Shown here: positions 5,862 to 61,305 of the stretch, piece after piece
How positions within the stretch are numbered: the first letter of the stretch is position 1
How the letters are laid out: each line of letters begins with the position of its first letter
Assembly (NCBI RefSeq): GCF_024362525.1
Contig: NZ_CP101459.1
Span: forward strand, 124,001 to 188,000
Source: Natrononativus amylolyticus
GTDB lineage: Archaea > Halobacteriota > Halobacteria > Halobacteriales > Natrialbaceae
DNA length: 64,000 nt
Direction of reading: 5' to 3'
Notes under the pieces: model-generated
What the model was told of the DNA's origin: nothing
The model's input: only the letters and a program-made list of their open reading frames with translations
Databases searched by the model: none
Translations under genes and position numbers: made by a program

Positions 5862-6096
5862 AGTGGGCGGGGACGACCACGAAGCTTTGGTTTGTGCGGG
5901 AGCGATGCGAGTGCCGACGAAGATAACCTTTTACCCTCCCTGCGGAAACAGTACGGTGGCAGTCTCTTGCCAGCATGTGTGAATATGACATCCTCACCGA
6001 TACGGACGAATACCCTGACCGTGGCGCAGCGAGACGACGCGGATCGGGCGCGGACGCCACCCCGGACGCCGCTCGAGCCCACCGGGGGTGGGCTAG

Positions 6097-7110
6097 ATGA
6101 GTGACCCGACGCCCGCGGCTGCGTTCCGCGAGTCGGTCCCGGGCGCGTCGGTCGAACTCGCCTACGCCGGGCTCAAGACGTTTCTCAAGGGCGAGTCTCG
6201 AGCGATCGACGACGTTTCGGACGTCGACGCCGCCGCCCTCGGGATTCCCTACGACGGGGCGGTGTCGAACCGGCCGGGAACCCGCTACGGCCCCGAGGCG
6301 ATCCGCCGGGCGAGCGGCTGGTGGGCGTACCTCTCGGATTACAAGGGCGGGCTGACGAACATGCAGACCGGCAAGCAGGTGAACTTCGACGATCTCACCG
6401 TGGCCGACTGCGGCGACGTCCCCGTCTTCCCGATGGACAGCGAGACGACCGCCGAGAGCATCACGGCCCACGTCGCGACGGTCGCCGAGCAGACGTTCCC
6501 GGTCCTCCTCGGGGGCGACCACTACTGTACGTTCCCCGCGGTCCGCGGCTTCGCCGAGGGGGCGGGCCACGACCGGGTGGGCTTCGTCCAGATCGACGCC
6601 CACACCGACACCGTCTCCGAGAGTCCGATCTTCGGCACCGACTTCCACGGCTCGAGTACGGCCCTGATCGCGGACTCACCGCACACCGAGTACGGCGACG
6701 TGAGTCAGGTCGCGATCCGGGGCTACGAGGCACCCGAGTTCTTCGAGTTCGCCGACGAGACGGGGCTCAACCTCTACACCATGCGCGACGTCGACGAGCG
6801 AGGGATCGTCTCCGTCGTCGAGGACGCCGTCGCGGCGGCCGCGGCGGACACCGACGCCGTCTACGTGAGCTTCGACATCGACGCCGTCGACCCGAGCGTC
6901 GCCCCCGGCACCGGAACGCCCGTCCCCGGCGGGCTCAGCGCCCACCAGGCGCTCGAGACGATGGCCGTCCTGGGCGGCTCCGACGCGGTCGGCGCGGTCG
7001 ACCTGATGGAGGTCGCCCCCCGCTACGACGCGACGGAGGGGACCGAGCGACTCGCGGCGTACCTCCTCGTGACGCTGCTCGAGCGACAGTTCGCGGAACG
7101 ATCGACGTGA
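6097..7110 (+). CDS. speB: Agmatinase/ureohydrolase family protein
   Basis: 337 residues with all the manganese-binding motifs of the arginase/agmatinase fold: GGDH with His142, DAHTD with Asp167/His169/Asp171, and SFDIDAVDPS with Asp260/Asp262. It should hydrolyse a guanidino compound to urea and an amine, most simply agmatine to putrescine. The binuclear manganese centre appears complete, so the enzyme is expected to be active. It is followed after 7 bases by an aminotransferase, probably one transcript, and lies divergent from the NrpR-like gene. Formiminoglutamase, guanidinobutyrase or other ureohydrolase activity cannot be excluded; the nearby polyamine-type importer favours agmatine. 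Confidence 0.9.
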   Translation: MSDPTPAAAFRESVPGASVELAYAGLKTFLKGESRAIDDVSDVDAAALGIPYDGAVSNRPGTRYGPEAIRRASGWWAYLSDYKGGLTNMQTGKQVNFDDLTVADCGDVPVFPMDSETTAESITAHVATVAEQTFPVLLGGDHYCTFPAVRGFAEGAGHDRVGFVQIDAHTDTVSESPIFGTDFHGSSTALIADSPHTEYGDVSQVAIRGYEAPEFFEFADETGLNLYTMRDVDERGIVSVVEDAVAAAAADTDAVYVSFDIDAVDPSVAPGTGTPVPGGLSAHQALETMAVLGGSDAVGAVDLMEVAPRYDATEGTERLAAYLLVTLLERQFAERST

Positions 7111-51213: not shown

Positions 51214-52600
51214 CCCCGAGGCTTGACCTCGGGGGTGAAGCCCGTCACGGAATGATACACACCACGTGCTGCGATCTCACACCCAATAAGTAGCTTTAAA
51301 TAATAGTTCGATCTCTAATAGAGTGTGACCGTCGTCAGGAATATCCAAGTCAAACTCGACATCCCCGAGGAACACCACCCCGTAGTGGATGCCACGTTTG
51401 ACGAGTTCCGCCGAGTCACCGAACCAGTCATCGACTACGGCTGGAGCGACGACCCTGACGACATCATCACCAACAAAAACCACCTCAACGAAGCCACCTA
51501 CCACGACATCCGCGACGACAGCCCACTCACCGGCGGACACGTCCAATCCGCTCGCAACCTCGCAGCCAACGCCCTTTCAAATTGCAAAGACTTGCTCGAA
51601 GACGGCAAGAACACGAGCAAGCCCGAGTTCAAGGGCACGGTCGTCACCTACAACTCAAACACCATAACGTACAACGACGACCACTGTACTCTCTCGACGG
51701 TAGACGGACGAATCCACGCCGAATACGTGTTCCCACACGACGACGAGGGAACGCCGTTCGAGGAGTACTGGAACGAGGACAAGTGGGAGAAACGAGAAGC
51801 AACGCTCCACAAGCGTGACGGTAAATACTACCTCCACGTTGCCGTTGAACACGTAGACGACACTGATTCTACCGACGAGCAGACCGAGAACGGAGTGGTT
51901 CTCGGCGTTGATTTGAACGTGGACGGCTCCCTCGCCGTCACTAGCACCGGGGCGTTCCTTGGAAACGCGGACGAGTTGAACCACAAACGCGACGAGTACG
52001 AACGCCGCCGTGGAAACCTGCAACAGACGGGGACGCGCTCGGCGCACCTTACCATCCAGTCAATTGGTGACAGGTTCGCCGAGTGGAGTCGCCACTGTTT
52101 GCACGACGTATCGAACGGCATTGTTCGAGAAGCCCGCATAAACGACTGTACGCATATCGCGTTCGAGCGGTTGACGTGGATCTGGACGCGCATTTCGAAT
52201 GCCTCGAAGTTCCAGCAGTGGGCGTTCAAAGAACTCCAGCGACAGGTCGAGTACAAGGCCGAAGAATACGGCATCGGAGTTGAAACCGTCGCGCCGCAGT
52301 ACACGTCTCAACGATGTAGTCACGGTGAGTGTGGGTTCACCCACGAAGATAACCGCGATGGTGACGAGTTCGAGTGTCTGAAGTGCGGAAAGGAGTTGCA
52401 CGCGGATTACAATGCGGCTCGGAACGTGGCGTGGCGTCTTGTCCAGAACTGGCTCAAGTCTGGGTCTGGACGGGCTACCAGTCAACTAGCCCTGAAGTCA
52501 GGAACCGTGAACGCGAATGGTCAGTTTAGACCGACTGCACTCAGCAGTTAGAGCGGGAGTTCACTGACAAGCCCCAACCCTTGAGGTCGGGGTTGTTGAC
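51214..52600 (+). mobile_element. IS1341-type (TnpB-only) element, apparently intact
   Basis: Left terminus: perfect hairpin CCCCGAGG-CTTGA-CCTCGGGG (51214-51234). Right terminus: imperfect hairpin at about 52567-52598, ending GGGGTTGTTGAC at 52600. The only gene is tnpB; no TnpA (Y1 transposase) is present, so movement would need TnpA from elsewhere. The same end types occur as orphans at 22503 and 30941. A TATA box TTTAAATA (51295-51302) lies about 25 bases before the tnpB start. Confidence 0.8.
51325..52551 (+). CDS. tnpB: TnpB, RNA-guided endonuclease of an IS1341-type element
   Basis: 408 residues from GTG. RuvC residues are all present: Asp196 in VLGVDLNVDGSLAV, Glu281 in HIAFERLTW and Asp361 in HADYNAARNVAWRL. 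The zinc ribbon is complete (Cys331, Cys336, Cys351, Cys354 in CSHGECGF...CLKCG). TnpB proteins use an omega RNA from the element's 3' end to cut DNA; the right-end hairpin overlaps the expected RNA. The family's accessory N-terminal helix region (residues 1-170) is readable. Likely active. Confidence 0.92.
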   Translation: MTVVRNIQVKLDIPEEHHPVVDATFDEFRRVTEPVIDYGWSDDPDDIITNKNHLNEATYHDIRDDSPLTGGHVQSARNLAANALSNCKDLLEDGKNTSKPEFKGTVVTYNSNTITYNDDHCTLSTVDGRIHAEYVFPHDDEGTPFEEYWNEDKWEKREATLHKRDGKYYLHVAVEHVDDTDSTDEQTENGVVLGVDLNVDGSLAVTSTGAFLGNADELNHKRDEYERRRGNLQQTGTRSAHLTIQSIGDRFAEWSRHCLHDVSNGIVREARINDCTHIAFERLTWIWTRISNASKFQQWAFKELQRQVEYKAEEYGIGVETVAPQYTSQRCSHGECGFTHEDNRDGDEFECLKCGKELHADYNAARNVAWRLVQNWLKSGSGRATSQLALKSGTVNANGQFRPTALSS

Positions 52601-55571: not shown

Positions 55572-55670
55572 ATGACTGTCTCAGAGTCGGATACCGGGAG
55601 AGCGAGGCTGCTACGGGTGTCGAGAGGGAGCGAATCGCGGAAGGCGGCGAAACCTGGGGGCCGACCGTGA
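55572..55670 (+). CDS. Possible 32-residue ORF coupled to the recombinase
   Basis: MTVSESDTGRARLLRVSRGS then ESRKAAKPGGRP. Its start lies where the mRNA from the TATA box at 55530 should begin, and its TGA overlaps the recombinase GTG (GTGA). It is basic, unlike most haloarchaeal proteins, so it may be a DNA- or RNA-binding peptide, or just a translated leader. No family. Confidence 0.4.
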   Translation: MTVSESDTGRARLLRVSRGSESRKAAKPGGRP

Positions 55671-56965
55671 GCGAACCCTCGAGTCAGCGTCGCCGAGACG
55701 ACTGGGACGCAAGCGACGTCCCCTGGACGATGCTCGAGGTAGAGGAGCTGGTCGACGCCTACTGGGCGGTCGTCGCACCGCGCTTCGAGGCGGACGGCTA
55801 CGACCCACACGCCGAGAAACCGACCCACGAGTGGCTTCGCGCGAACGATCTCCGGCCGCTGCTCTACGCCCTCCGGACGTACCACGACCGGACCTTTACG
55901 GAGTTCTGGCGTGAAGACCTGGGTCTCGAGGGAGAGGACTCCGGCTACGAGTGGGAGACGACCGACGAGCGAACGATCGACGCGCTCGAGTCGTTTCTGT
56001 CCTCTCGCCGGGAGCGCAAGGGGCTCGCCGAGTCGTCGATCACGACGCTCCGGTACCGACTGAACCGGTACGTCGGGGCCTACCGCGACGAAAACGGGAC
56101 GGGTGACCTCGTCTCGCCGATCGCCCGCGACAGCGACCGGCCCGCGTACGAGGCGGTGGACGCCTGCTGGGCGGCGTTCGACCGACTCCACGCGGAACTC
56201 GAGGGCGGCCAGACCAAACGCCGCATCCACCTCGCGGTCTCGAACTGGTACGCCCACCTGGTGCGCCGGAGGTGGGCGTCGGTCAATCCCGCAGAGGGAC
56301 TCGACGAGGAGTTCGACTGGTCGACGGCGGCCGACGACGACACGGATACCCCGTGCCTGTCGAGCGATCACGTCAACGCCCTGTATCGGGCTGCGGATGA
56401 CCGCGAGGAGCGACTGCTGGTTCTCGCACTCTGTGCCTGGGGGCTGCGACCGAACGAAGTCGCCCGCCTCCACGTCCAGCAGTTCGTCCTCCGGCCGTCC
56501 GACGACGACGTTCCATATATCGAGTTCCAGGAGCGCAAGAACGGTCCCGGGGAGGTGTCGTTGCTGTACGGGCGGGACGTCCTCGAAGCGTACCTCGAGG
56601 AGGTAACCGACACCGAGGGATGGAGCGGCTACCTGTTTCCCTCCCCACACGCCTCTCGGGACCACATCTCGCGGTGGACCGTCTGGAACCGATTCGACGG
56701 ACTCACAGAGCGGGCGGAGCTGCCCGACGAGATCGACGGCGTCTCCACGGCGCCGAAGATGGGGCGGCGGTTCTGGTACGACGCCTACTCCGCCTCGCTC
56801 GACGTCGTTCTCGGGAGCCTGGACGAAATCGCCGCAGAGCAGGGGAGCTCGAGCGCGGAGGTCGTCCTGCAGAATTATCTCTCGGAGAGTCGAGCGCGGC
56901 AACTCCGGCGTTCGTACATGCGCGAGCAACTGGCCGACGCCTTCGGCGAGACGCCGAACGAGTAG
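55667..56965 (+). CDS. Tyrosine recombinase (integrase-like)
   Basis: 432 residues from a GTG at 55667 (VSEPSSQRRRDDWDASDVPW). N-terminal SAM-like region (about 25-215). Catalytic region: Arg261 in AWGLRPNEVARLHV, Lys291 in FQERKNGPGE, Arg367 in PKMGRRFWYDAY and Tyr404 in VVLQNYLSES. The usual His before the second Arg is Lys364, a variant. Length and architecture resemble haloarchaeal plasmid and provirus integrases. It is followed by iterons and a ParA/partner pair. A relic of the same C-terminus occurs at 44698-44871. Cutting chemistry should be intact as Arg, Lys and Tyr remain. Confidence 0.85.
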   Translation: MSEPSSQRRRDDWDASDVPWTMLEVEELVDAYWAVVAPRFEADGYDPHAEKPTHEWLRANDLRPLLYALRTYHDRTFTEFWREDLGLEGEDSGYEWETTDERTIDALESFLSSRRERKGLAESSITTLRYRLNRYVGAYRDENGTGDLVSPIARDSDRPAYEAVDACWAAFDRLHAELEGGQTKRRIHLAVSNWYAHLVRRRWASVNPAEGLDEEFDWSTAADDDTDTPCLSSDHVNALYRAADDREERLLVLALCAWGLRPNEVARLHVQQFVLRPSDDDVPYIEFQERKNGPGEVSLLYGRDVLEAYLEEVTDTEGWSGYLFPSPHASRDHISRWTVWNRFDGLTERAELPDEIDGVSTAPKMGRRFWYDAYSASLDVVLGSLDEIAAEQGSSSAEVVLQNYLSESRARQLRRSYMREQLADAFGETPNE

Positions 56966-56982
56966 TAGTTTGTAACGGGCGT

Positions 56983-57013
56983 TTCAACCAAGTGCTTCAA
57001 TCAGGTGTTTCAA
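56983..57013 (+). repeat. Iteron cluster 1, three copies with 13-bp spacing
   Basis: TTCAA cores begin at 56983, 56996 and 57009, exactly 13 bases apart: TTCAACCAAGTGC, TTCAATCAGGTGT, then TTCAAACG. This is the first of two clusters flanking the space before the parA gene. It suggests a protein-binding centromere or origin array. Confidence 0.75.
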
Positions 57014-57150
57014 ACGTTTGCAGCAAGCAGGTCTGCCGCTGTAACAGTCCCGACGTCCCTGTGTCTGCTACGAGGGAACGAAACGGTCGAACCCGACACT
57101 CGAACGGACGCATAGCAGGTAGCAAAGGTGCGCGACGAGCGTTCGGATCA

Positions 57151-57176
57151 TGTACTTGGTTCGAGGAACCCGTACA
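57151..57176. repeat. Imperfect inverted repeat between iteron clusters
   Basis: TGTAC-TT-GGTTC-GAG-GAACC-C-GTACA: two nested perfect arms around a three-base centre with slight asymmetry. It lies between the two iteron clusters, as would a recombination core or attachment site. Confidence 0.45.
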
Positions 57177-57289
57177 ATGGATAGATACGTCCGCTGAACG
57201 CAAGCGAATGAAGCGCTCACGTGATTCAAACAGAGGGTGCAGCCCGGCGAGACAAGCCATCGTTACAAATCCGAGTTACAAGCACAAGA

Positions 57290-57320
57290 TTCAATCAGTT
57301 GTTTCAATCGTGTGTTTGGA
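57290..57320 (+). repeat. Iteron cluster 2, three copies with 13-bp spacing
   Basis: TTCAA cores at 57290 and 57303, and a degenerate TTGGA at 57316: TTCAATCAGTTGT, TTCAATCGTGTGT, TTGGAGTG. The 18 bases TTCAATCAGTTGTTTCAA differ from cluster 1 (56996-57013) at only one position. It lies about 105 bases before the parA start. Confidence 0.75.
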
Positions 57321-57387
57321 GTGTTGGTTCCGAATGATGGTTGGGGTTGTGACAAGCAAGGAATCGGCACAATCGAAACGTCTGACG

Positions 57388-57424: not shown

Positions 57425-58324
57425 ATGCTATCGTACGCCGTGTACAGTGAGGCCGGTGGCGTCGGAAAAACGACGCTCGCCGCAAATCTGGCGGTCGCGC
57501 ACGCTCGAGCGGGACTCGACGTCCTCGTCGTACCGCTCGACCAGCAGGATGGCGACCTGAGCTACCTGTTCGACGTCGATCAGGACAGGGCAAGTACCGA
57601 CGTAGATACACTAGTCCATCACCTCGTCGGCCGGGGGAAAGGCGAGTTCGCAGACCTCATCCAGACGGTCGAACACGGGATCGACATCATTCCGGAGCAC
57701 AACCGCCTCGAGGACCTCGGCGAGGCACTCCGGAAAGAGCGCGAGGCGCGCAGCGACTTCGGCGAGTCGTTCCCGATGTGGACGCAGCTTCAGCGCGTCC
57801 TCCGCGAGGCGGCGATCCACAACCACTACGACGTATTGATCATGGACCCCCCGGCGAGTTCCGGGCCACACCTGTACAACGCACTCGATGCGACGCGAAA
57901 CCTCGTCCTCCCCGTCGAACCCTCCGGAAAGGGTCAGGCGTCGGTGAGCGGACTCGACGTCCTCGTCCGGAACCTAGAGGAGCAACTCGAGATCAACATC
58001 GGGGTCCTCGCCGCGGTTCCGAACCGCGTCAAAGGGACCCGAGACCAGGAGGAGATCATCGAAGAGGTCAGCGAGCAGGGGTTCGACGTTCCCGTTATCC
58101 TGCGGGACCGAACCTCACTACTCGAGGGCTGCTGGCGCGAGCGCTGTAGTGCGTTCACGTACGTGCGCGATCACCGCGAGCGCCGCCGCGACTACGAGCT
58201 CGAGACGCTCGCAAAGTTCGACACGCTGGCGCGCCATCTCGAGGCCGAGGGCGGACTCGAAGCGCCGAACCCGCCGGAGCCGGGTGCGCTCGAGGACGAC
58301 GACGAGATGGAGGTCCGTGCATGA
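57425..58324 (+). CDS. ParA-type partition ATPase
   Basis: 299 residues from MLSYAVYSEAGGVGKTTLAA. The deviant Walker A AGGVGKTT is at 10-17, the A' motif is in PLDQQDGDLSYL near 42, and Walker B is LIMDPPASSG near 140. It matches ParA/Soj-like ATPases of haloarchaeal plasmids and chromosomal islands, which move DNA or position complexes by ATP-driven binding to the nucleoid. It overlaps the small partner gene by four bases (ATGA). The iteron clusters just upstream are candidate binding sites for the partner. Confidence 0.9.
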   Translation: MLSYAVYSEAGGVGKTTLAANLAVAHARAGLDVLVVPLDQQDGDLSYLFDVDQDRASTDVDTLVHHLVGRGKGEFADLIQTVEHGIDIIPEHNRLEDLGEALRKEREARSDFGESFPMWTQLQRVLREAAIHNHYDVLIMDPPASSGPHLYNALDATRNLVLPVEPSGKGQASVSGLDVLVRNLEEQLEINIGVLAAVPNRVKGTRDQEEIIEEVSEQGFDVPVILRDRTSLLEGCWRERCSAFTYVRDHRERRRDYELETLAKFDTLARHLEAEGGLEAPNPPEPGALEDDDEMEVRA

Positions 58325-58755
58325 CCGGACTCAAATCCGGATCGGGCGACGACCTCTGGGGGGACGACGAAGAAACGGCGGACGAGGAGCCCTCGGAAGC
58401 GCCGCAGTCTTCGACCGAGGAGGCAGCCGCATCGGGGAGTTCGGACGACGAGTCCGGGGTTTCGGGCGCGGAAACCGCCACGAACGGGGCTCGTGATCAG
58501 GGACAGTCGTACCTCGTCCGGCGAGCGATTCAGGACAAGTCGGTGCAGTTCGAACGCGACGAACGGCTGACGTTCTTCGTTCACGACGACGTCGTCGAGG
58601 GCGAACGCGACCTGATAACGGACCTCGAGTCCACGCTCGGTCGCGACGTGCCCAAATTCGACGTCCGCGAGGCGGTGTACCGCGCCGCGCTGAACAACCC
58701 GGACGATGTGCTCGAGGAGTTGCTCGCGATGGGGTACTCGCTCGGCGAAGAGTAG
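58321..58755 (+). CDS. Small ParA partner (candidate centromere-binding protein)
   Basis: 144 residues: acidic, disordered N-terminal 60 (GDDEETADEEPSEAPQSST) followed by a compact C-terminal domain (SYLVRRAIQDKSVQFERDER, then DLESTLGRDVPKFDVREAVY). Proteins of this kind follow parA in haloarchaeal replicons. It is too short for a classic ParB, and I cannot tell whether it binds the iterons. It overlaps the parA stop, so both are made from one mRNA. Confidence 0.75.
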   Translation: MTGLKSGSGDDLWGDDEETADEEPSEAPQSSTEEAAASGSSDDESGVSGAETATNGARDQGQSYLVRRAIQDKSVQFERDERLTFFVHDDVVEGERDLITDLESTLGRDVPKFDVREAVYRAALNNPDDVLEELLAMGYSLGEE

Positions 58756-59538: not shown

Positions 59539-59661
59539 ATACACTGTACTGACCACATTGTTCAGACGAACGAACTACTTTCACTCCGCTTAGCAGGGCT
59601 TTATGAGTGTAGAAATTCTATGTTGGCGTACACTGGCGAGAGTCACGTGTGTCGCACGAGA

Positions 59662-61305
59662 ATGACTCGAATAGGAGCGGATACAGCGACTACACCATTC
59701 CAACGTGCCGCCCGAGACCTACTGGAGTCCAATCCTGATGCGACACCGCTTGACCTCGCAACGAGTCTTGATTTTCTTACTTCTGATAGCGATGACGCTC
59801 ATCCCGACTGGCATCCTTCATCTAAACCATTCGATGCGATGGTTCGGGCGTACTTTCTCCAACAACTCACCGGATGGTCTGACCGCGAGACGATAGAAAC
59901 CATCACTGACGAGACGGAGACGGCCACCGCATTCGGCTTCGAACTAGACGAACTCCCCAGCCGCTCCACTCTAACCCGAGCGAGGAACAATCGTCTTTCA
60001 GAACCTCTCAAGGCCTCTCTTAAATGGAAGGCTGGGTGGATTGAAGCACACCTTCAGGCAACAGGTCATCCACTCGCAACACAGGACCTCATTCCTGAAG
60101 ACAAGAGTAGTGATTCCCAAAGGAATGTGAATCGCTTCATCCGTGACAAACTCGATACCGTTCCGCGTGAGATGGTCAATCTCATCGCCGACGAATGGAA
60201 CGACTGGATTCCCGACCGCGCACGGAACGCTCAGTACCATCTGAACTCGTTCCTCGAAACCGAGTGTACGATGGGGTTAACGCGTACTGCCGCCGAGCAG
60301 GGCTCGGAAATCTATAACGACAATACTGACCGAGATGGTGGCGGCCCCGGTGGAGACCTCTTTGTAGAGTACATGAAGCGGTTAGAAAGGGCTGACGTGC
60401 TTCGGATGCTCCACAACTCGACAGGGTTGATGCTTAACACGGCGAAACGACACCTCGAATTCGAGCGCCCCGTAACCGTCGCTATTGACATAACGCTCCT
60501 CCCGTTCTACGGCGATACTGACCACGCCAAGCAGAGTGAGTGGATTGTGGATACGCGCAAGCGGCCTGACACGGAGTACGATTGGAGTTACAGGTACGCG
60601 ACCATCGCCATCGTGGGGGAGAACGTGAAGTTCATGCTCGGATTGAAGCCAGTTCACGAAGATGACAATATGGGGGTTCTAGTTGAGGAACTGCTCGACG
60701 ACGCACTCCACCACGTCAGTATTGACACCGTGTACGCAGACCGTGCGTTCGCTTCTGCAGACGTGTTAAACACACTCAACCAGCTCCCGGTTAGATACGT
60801 CATCCCAGTTCCACTGAACTCTCGTCTCAAAAACGACATTCGACGAATGAGGCATGATGTTAAGGTAACTCACGAATATCCGATTCACGGGAACGTACGA
60901 GACGGAGCCACTAACGAGAAAGTGAGAACGACCCGTGTGTTACTCCCCTCTGTCAAGAGCGAAGACGATGGAGCGGGCACTGTCGCGTTCTACACAAATT
61001 TGGACGTAGACGATGAATCAGCGGTTGAACGCGAACGGACTGAGAAGGCCATCAATAGGTATCGGCGTCGATGGGGCATCGAGAGTGCGTATCAGTCGCT
61101 GAAAACGTTCCTCCCGTGGACTTCCTCGAAAGAACCGGTAGTTCGATTGTTCCACTTTGCGTTCGGGGTGTTATTGTACAATATGTGGCGACTTATCGAC
61201 TTCCTCATCCAGTTAAGCATAGATGAGTACGAGGTGCGGACGAAGCCGCGTTTGAAATCCAAGCGATTCGTCAATGCGGTGAAATCGCGCAAACTTCTTG
61301 CGTAA
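59662..61305 (+). CDS. ISH3-like DDE transposase
   Basis: 547 residues from MTRIGADTATTPFQRAARDL. DDE catalytic residues are readable: Asp276 in VTVAIDITLLPFYGD, Asp360 in TVYADRAFASADVL and Glu474 in RRWGIESAYQSLKTF. The region KYVIPV-like PVRYVIPVPLNS and late VVRLFHFAFGVLLYNMWRLID resemble ISH3 family haloarchaeal transposases, although this protein is about 150 residues longer at its N-terminus than the type I know. No terminal inverted repeats were identified with confidence. Lower GC than surroundings. Confidence 0.82.
   Translation: MTRIGADTATTPFQRAARDLLESNPDATPLDLATSLDFLTSDSDDAHPDWHPSSKPFDAMVRAYFLQQLTGWSDRETIETITDETETATAFGFELDELPSRSTLTRARNNRLSEPLKASLKWKAGWIEAHLQATGHPLATQDLIPEDKSSDSQRNVNRFIRDKLDTVPREMVNLIADEWNDWIPDRARNAQYHLNSFLETECTMGLTRTAAEQGSEIYNDNTDRDGGGPGGDLFVEYMKRLERADVLRMLHNSTGLMLNTAKRHLEFERPVTVAIDITLLPFYGDTDHAKQSEWIVDTRKRPDTEYDWSYRYATIAIVGENVKFMLGLKPVHEDDNMGVLVEELLDDALHHVSIDTVYADRAFASADVLNTLNQLPVRYVIPVPLNSRLKNDIRRMRHDVKVTHEYPIHGNVRDGATNEKVRTTRVLLPSVKSEDDGAGTVAFYTNLDVDDESAVERERTEKAINRYRRRWGIESAYQSLKTFLPWTSSKEPVVRLFHFAFGVLLYNMWRLIDFLIQLSIDEYEVRTKPRLKSKRFVNAVKSRKLLA

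Follow-up and report, generated by a model that had tools for sequence, protein, structure and literature searches.

RESULTS

Organization of the locus

The window analysed in this study is a 64-kb stretch (64,000 nucleotides) of the Natrononativus amylolyticus genome, corresponding to positions 124001-188000 of contig C2 (768,154 bp); the genome comprises 3.99 Mb in three contigs. It contains a three-part module in which a repeat array is followed by a gene encoding a ParA-like ATPase and then by a small gene that overlaps parA. The features are listed below in window coordinates; the array classes are defined in a later section.

55667..56965 (+): tyrosine-recombinase-like gene, ending directly 5' of array cluster 1; PF00589 match at E = 2.3e-4, below the family cut-off
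56968..57019 (+): array cluster 1, with 13-bp units starting at 56968 (degenerate), 56981, 56994 and 57007
57222..57234 (+): lone class A unit TGATTCAAACAGA between the clusters, class A matrix score 13.3 bits
57262..57326 (+): array cluster 2, with 13-bp units starting at 57262, 57275, 57288, 57301 and 57314 (degenerate)
57380..57386 (+): GTCTGAC box, ~45 bp before the parA start and just 5' of a TATA-like CTTATG
57425..58324 (+): ParA-like ATPase gene, with the Walker A motif AGGVGKT and a match to AAA_31
58321..58755 (+): small gene with a 4-bp overlap with parA, proposed to encode the centromere-binding protein (no binding data)

Two ORFs flanking this region, 51325-52551 (TnpB-like) and 59620-61305 (IS transposase-like), have a transposase-type look, as judged by eye.

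At 77 of the 107 loci described below, GTCTG[AG]C was found no more than 90 bp before parA; the rest of the upstream sequence (37,485 bp) contained it only 9 times. As this box is common to array classes A-F, it is not a class-specific unit; it could be an element of general promoter or regulator function.

The recombinase-like gene ends right before cluster 1, a position that would suit repeats serving as recombination or resolution sites of the adjacent protein. However, a homologue of this gene was detectable at just 3 of the 32 loci examined (L008, L018 and L030), whereas the arrays are general. We therefore rejected the recombinase as a constant part of the module, and consider a recombination-site function highly improbable.

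Tandem 13-bp units upstream of parA

The initial annotation had described two clusters of TTCAA cores with a 13-bp spacing. Cores were found at 56983, 56996, 57009, 57290 and 57303, and that at 57316 is TTGGA, degenerate as claimed. The two clusters are also as similar as had been stated, in that only one mismatch separates the 18 bases at 56996 from those at 57290. Although the positions and spacing were correct, the clusters had been drawn too short at three units each; the two runs, which together occupy 56968-57326, contain 4 and 5 units with degenerate end units. The three good units of cluster 1 scored 10.0-16.5 bits with the class A matrix.

TTCAA occurs 32 times on the + strand of the 64 kb, and the only three pairs at exactly 13 bp lie in the arrays. 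The array region was also the peak of 13-bp periodicity in the 64 kb, being overlapped by all twelve top-ranked 450-bp segments when 2,542 overlapping segments were scanned. The wrapping geometry put forward in the initial annotation rests on arithmetic alone: a pitch of 13 bp corresponds to ~1.24 helical turns, such that four units (52 bp) would cover about five turns.

A unit that was common and unclustered throughout the genome would have refuted the proposal made in the initial annotation. This outcome was not observed. In the 3.99 Mb there were 11 two-unit matches with up to 3 mismatches, of which 10 were on C2 in four clusters (three matches at the par locus and seven in three other clusters) and one was on C1. 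A reversed-pattern control gave no matches.

The 13-bp pitch is general in haloarchaea

We assembled 107 upstream regions consisting of the window, 18 homologues, 13 named plasmids and 75 further loci, the last being the even-ranked half of 150 places among the matches listed. An additional locus (L021) was left out because it had too little upstream sequence. The set represents about 98 distinct replicons; nine replicons were sampled twice, four as exact duplicates and five more by inference.

When periods of 7-24 bp were tested, 13 bp was the best period upstream of parA at 101 of the 107 loci and was not the best at the other six. Removal of exact duplicates left 98 of 103, and loci added later gave 19 of 20. 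In the control sequence downstream of the small gene, 13 bp was best in 9 of 99 regions and reached a z of at least 3 in 7 of 99. A few of these control matches may be real, as arrays also occur 3' of some operons; class B arrays lying just 3' of the par operon as well were seen at G136:C3:1780-1813, G142:C2:1769-1802 and G246:C1:814559-814592. Spacing counts obtained from motif fits are biased because the start words were picked for 13-bp recurrence, but the period test is unaffected.

These data bear on whether the repeats are merely an effect of chance or composition in AT-rich intergenic DNA. The degeneracy of single units is what such an effect would produce. However, z for 13 bp was at least 3 in 90 of the 107 upstream regions when compared with dinucleotide-preserving shuffles, the reversed pattern was absent from the window genome, and the top 13-bp periodicity of the 64 kb falls here. 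We regard this explanation as practically ruled out.

The ParA-like ATPase lacks the signature lysine

The criteria of type I ParABS systems considered here are a ParA-superfamily ATPase, a deviant Walker A motif with the signature lysine (KGGxxK[ST]), an adjacent partner gene and a repeated cis site beside the operon. The module meets the first of these. The window ParA matched AAA_31 with an E value of 4.8e-18 and 66.1 bits versus a Pfam cut-off of 27, and its closest relatives in the PDB were Soj/ParA-type segregation proteins. The Walker A criterion is not met by this ParA family. At 105 of the 107 loci KGGxxK[ST] is replaced by AGGVGK[TS], in which the signature lysine is an alanine; the two exceptions are L085, with AGGVAKT, and L110, whose start is cut off. 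AGGVGKT was also present in all 20 loci added later. As its ParA is without the signature lysine, the module is a variant and not a canonical member of type I ParABS. Relatives of this ParA were found on 320 plasmid records and in 182 of the 292 genomes sampled of the taxonomic class.

The two remaining criteria are met. A small partner ORF lies downstream of parA at 106 of the 107 loci, and the repeated cis site beside the operon is given by the 13-bp period at 101 of the 107. Contiguous tandem repeats, as for centromere proteins of the type Ib ribbon-helix-helix kind, are likewise provided by the 13-bp units, in the absence of binding data.

The small partner protein

The product of the 58321 gene consists of an N-terminus reading MTGLKSG (family type MTGxKxG), an acidic variable linker and a conserved C-terminal domain of ~80 residues. 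All 106 small proteins carry a lysine close to the N-terminus, with xG after it. That this lysine compensates for the lysine lost from ParA is speculation.

No Pfam or NCBIfam family matched the small protein at E values up to 1, and a search of the PDB with the family profile returned no convincing relative. That search gave five matches with E values of up to 10, none of them SegB, although the presence of SegB in that copy of the PDB was unconfirmed. Structure models had low overall confidence, only the C-terminal helical region being well predicted; they contained little or no strand, then three helices. UBA-like domains gave the best fold comparison (Z 5.2), and no ribbon-helix-helix chain appeared in the result lists of the profile search against the PDB, Pfam, two predictions or the fold comparison. 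A ribbon-helix-helix fold thus remains a guess, based on the likely strand-helix-helix order in the protein, and was neither clearly supported nor excluded by these searches and models.

Unit sequence tracks partner-protein class

Loci were grouped into classes A-G by the C-terminal domain of the small protein. The window arrays and their partner belong to class A. The consensus units of the seven classes are given below.

A: TGTTnCAAAC
B: TCTTAGAT
C: TGTTCAtTA
D: CtAtACcGTaTG
E: TATAGcTgta
F: AcTtagCTaGCT
G: TTGnTTGAA

The initial annotation had suggested a motif search in other haloarchaea. What recurs there is the 13-bp pitch; the unit sequence is class-specific and does not constitute one motif. 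Thus, the word differs between partner-protein classes while the pitch remains constant at 13 bp.

We compared the class assigned to each array with that of its protein. The two agreed at all 88 loci of classes A-F in a leave-one-out analysis in which look-alikes were also kept out of training, and at 20 of 20 loci added later, including six of class G scored with a matrix from two loci. Outside the 88 were six proteins beyond classes A-G and the two class G loci. L009, whose partner gene is broken by an insert, was left out of the clustering, and no partner gene was recognised at L055. A single protein cluster was divided manually into classes D, E and F according to a strand motif, after the palindrome results had been seen.

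The insert in L009 (Halorubrum californiense) is a palindrome with an N inside the partner gene, at about 6090-6130. It is probably an assembly artefact, and we take the palindrome to be sequencing-adapter-like. The contig of L018 is titled 'Mollicutes bacterium', yet its class B module is typical of haloarchaea; it is probably mis-binned.

Enumeration of palindromes locus by locus identified a clear 9-bp odd palindrome mainly in classes A (GTTTnAAAC) and B (ATCTnAGAT). Over the 107 loci the best symmetric width was 9 in 51, 8 in 30, 11 in 16 and 10 in 10. As the best width varies in the other classes, we do not claim that a 9-bp palindrome is universal.

Covariation alone cannot name the protein that reads the DNA, because the array, parA and the partner gene are transmitted as a unit. 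We favour the small protein for two reasons. The greatest divergence between classes is in its C-terminal domain, with identities to the window protein of 23-40% outside class A as compared with about 53-68% for ParA among the matches listed, and known ParA modules are built in this way. Binding of the arrays by the 58321 protein is accordingly only an inference from covariation.

Additional clusters on the same replicon

On C2, three distal clusters were found near 330.6, 463.9 and 713.6 kb, at 149-533 kb from the window arrays. Each consists of 3-4 tandem units and is apparently intergenic, based on our reading of the ORF lists. Those near 463.9 and 713.6 kb (L114 and L115) are 3.4-3.9 kb from orc1/cdc6 genes.

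Matches in other genomes were sorted by hand into par, distal and other sites; those at one end of a contig that has parA at the opposite end were counted as par. In eleven other class A genomes, all 40 matches fell on the contig bearing the class A parA, of which 33 were at the par locus and 7 were distal; one of these genomes had no matches. Twelve class B genomes yielded 67 matches, 52 at or beside the par operon, 8 distal and 7 on other contigs, with 12 in the control. Six of the 7 off-contig matches came from one draft assembly. As the distal and off-contig class B matches combined (15) hardly exceed the control (12), the distal class B matches do not stand out from background by count. 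The 12 class C genomes yielded 52 matches (40 par, 7 distal and 5 elsewhere; control 2), one genome being without matches.

All six distal sites checked on annotated named plasmids lie between genes. Five are upstream of a gene start, at distances of up to ~0.7 kb, and one is between convergent gene ends. None of the six had an annotated orc gene at a distance of up to about 5-6 kb, the gene table being incomplete. A general link between distal clusters and orc genes was dropped for this reason. One distal class A site (L119 5785-5807; NZ_CP044524.1 321284-321306) is just 5' of genes annotated as RdfA (rod-determining factor) and an archaea-specific SMC-related protein.

The distal sites are informative with respect to the possibility that the array is only an operator used by the small protein to repress the parA operon, the repeats having no role as a centromere. 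The array is directly 5' of parA in the loci examined and is followed by the GTCTGAC box and the TATA-like element, and all but one of the six distal sites examined are upstream of a gene start. However, the replicon has further multi-unit clusters at distances of 149-533 kb, the distal sites adjoin unrelated genes, and an operator between convergent gene ends would be senseless. We therefore consider a purely operator role unlikely.

Proximity to orc1/cdc6 of two of the three distal C2 clusters would instead suit replication-origin iterons acting under an initiator, and we counted these two sites, at less than 4 kb from orc, against the centromere interpretation because they would suit a role in replication as well. 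With respect to orc1/cdc6, the initiator family covered here, the window arrays are not adjacent to an initiator gene, the nearest one on C2 being about 171 kb away. The six distal sites on other plasmids have no such neighbour in the incomplete annotation, and the unit sequence tracks the class of the small protein encoded beside parA. An origin function is thus very unlikely.

DISCUSSION

The arrays as probable centromeres

The proposal that the window repeats constitute a centromere array, made in the initial annotation, is supported by the recurrence of the 13-bp pitch at orthologous parA genes, by the match between array and partner class, and by the presence of extra clusters almost exclusively on the same replicon. 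What the DNA itself establishes is a three-part module with a fixed 13-bp pitch, correspondence of unit and partner class, and additional clusters that, in the window genome, are nearly all on the same replicon. From this we infer, with considerable confidence, that the arrays are replicon-specific centromeres (parS) for haloarchaeal plasmid partition that the 58321 protein binds and ParA moves; both binding and partition are inferences.

A partition mechanism of this kind would begin with dimers of the 58321 protein filling the 13-bp units side by side, which is itself inferred. Each successive unit would be displaced by about a quarter-turn round the helix, four units spanning about five turns. 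The bound clusters would engage ParA via the exposed, conserved Lys-containing N-termini of the partner, and ParA would then move or space plasmid copies ahead of division. Given that the array is within the parA promoter region, it probably also mediates autoregulation of the operon.

Comparison with known systems

The pSM19035 delta/omega system is a type Ib ParABS with a ribbon-helix-helix ParB and six parS sites per plasmid built from 7-bp heptads, and activation of its ATPase needs at least four contiguous repeats (PMC9499535). The haloarchaeal module resembles pSM19035 in having a small partner of ParA, contiguous tandem repeats in promoter regions and several sites, and the clusters of 3-5 units are reminiscent of the need for at least four repeats. 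It differs in that its units are 13 bp and not 7-bp heptads, with a word that has diversified by class at constant pitch. Moreover, the haloarchaeal ParA is without the signature lysine, and a ribbon-helix-helix fold has not been shown for the partner.

SegB of Saccharolobus/Sulfolobus has a ribbon-helix-helix domain and many scattered sites with the 13-bp palindrome TCTAGASTCTAGA (PMC12284271). SegAB is similar to our module in being archaeal and in pairing a ParA-type ATPase with a small partner whose gene overlaps that of the ATPase. SegB sites are described there as single palindromes mostly inside chromosomal genes (PMC12284271), in contrast to the intergenic tandem arrays of haloarchaeal plasmids. 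The class consensuses are not of the palindromic TCTAGASTCTAGA type, being different from the published site (PMC12284271).

The AspA-ParB-ParA cassette of pNOB8 comprises three proteins, of which AspA is a winged helix-turn-helix protein that recognises a 23-bp palindrome and spreads on DNA (PMC5120986). It shares with our module its occurrence on an archaeal plasmid as a partition cassette with the site 5' of the operon (PMC5120986). Unlike the haloarchaeal module, it is a three-protein system in which AspA spreads from the 23-bp palindrome.

The absence of the signature lysine raises the question of how this ParA works. McdA, a protein that positions carboxysomes, also lacks it. Both McdA (SGGQGKT) and BcsQ are published exceptions without the signature lysine (PMC9178275). 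The haloarchaeal ParA is like McdA in having a Walker A motif without this lysine but has alanine at this position (AGGVGK[TS]) and is encoded beside a plasmid-type array.

The segregation of large haloarchaeal plasmids is little described, and we found no account of a haloarchaeal parS in the literature searched, which was restricted to open-licence full-text papers. We conclude that this centromere family of haloarchaeal plasmids is real, general and, as far as searched, undescribed, and that it is a variant of ParA-type partition. If the partition reading is correct, a centromere and its reader can be predicted for the ParA of 182 of 292 genomes sampled. The classes would also provide a natural series of recognition words, at constant geometry, with which to trace the evolution of a reader protein.

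Several systems per cell

A more tentative idea, which we put forward as possible though probably not correct, is that the arrays constitute a code of replicon identity. The 13-bp geometry would be fixed, while the word and its reader would have co-diverged into at least seven orthogonal classes, such that megaplasmids could share a cell. Distal clusters would serve as further handles, and the lysine of the partner might replace the lost charge of ParA in trans, leaving the motor active only at its own centromere.

Among the matches listed, 18 genomes carry at least two copies of the module. The different-class result was weak when one genome per genus was used (9 genomes; P = 0.19). With all 18 genomes there were 26 within-genome pairs, none of them of the same class; shuffling of classes gave a mean of 3.7 same-class pairs, with zero pairs at P = 0.019. 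Pairs of different class agree with incompatibility without proving it, and the centromere interpretation, if true, predicts which megaplasmids should be incompatible.
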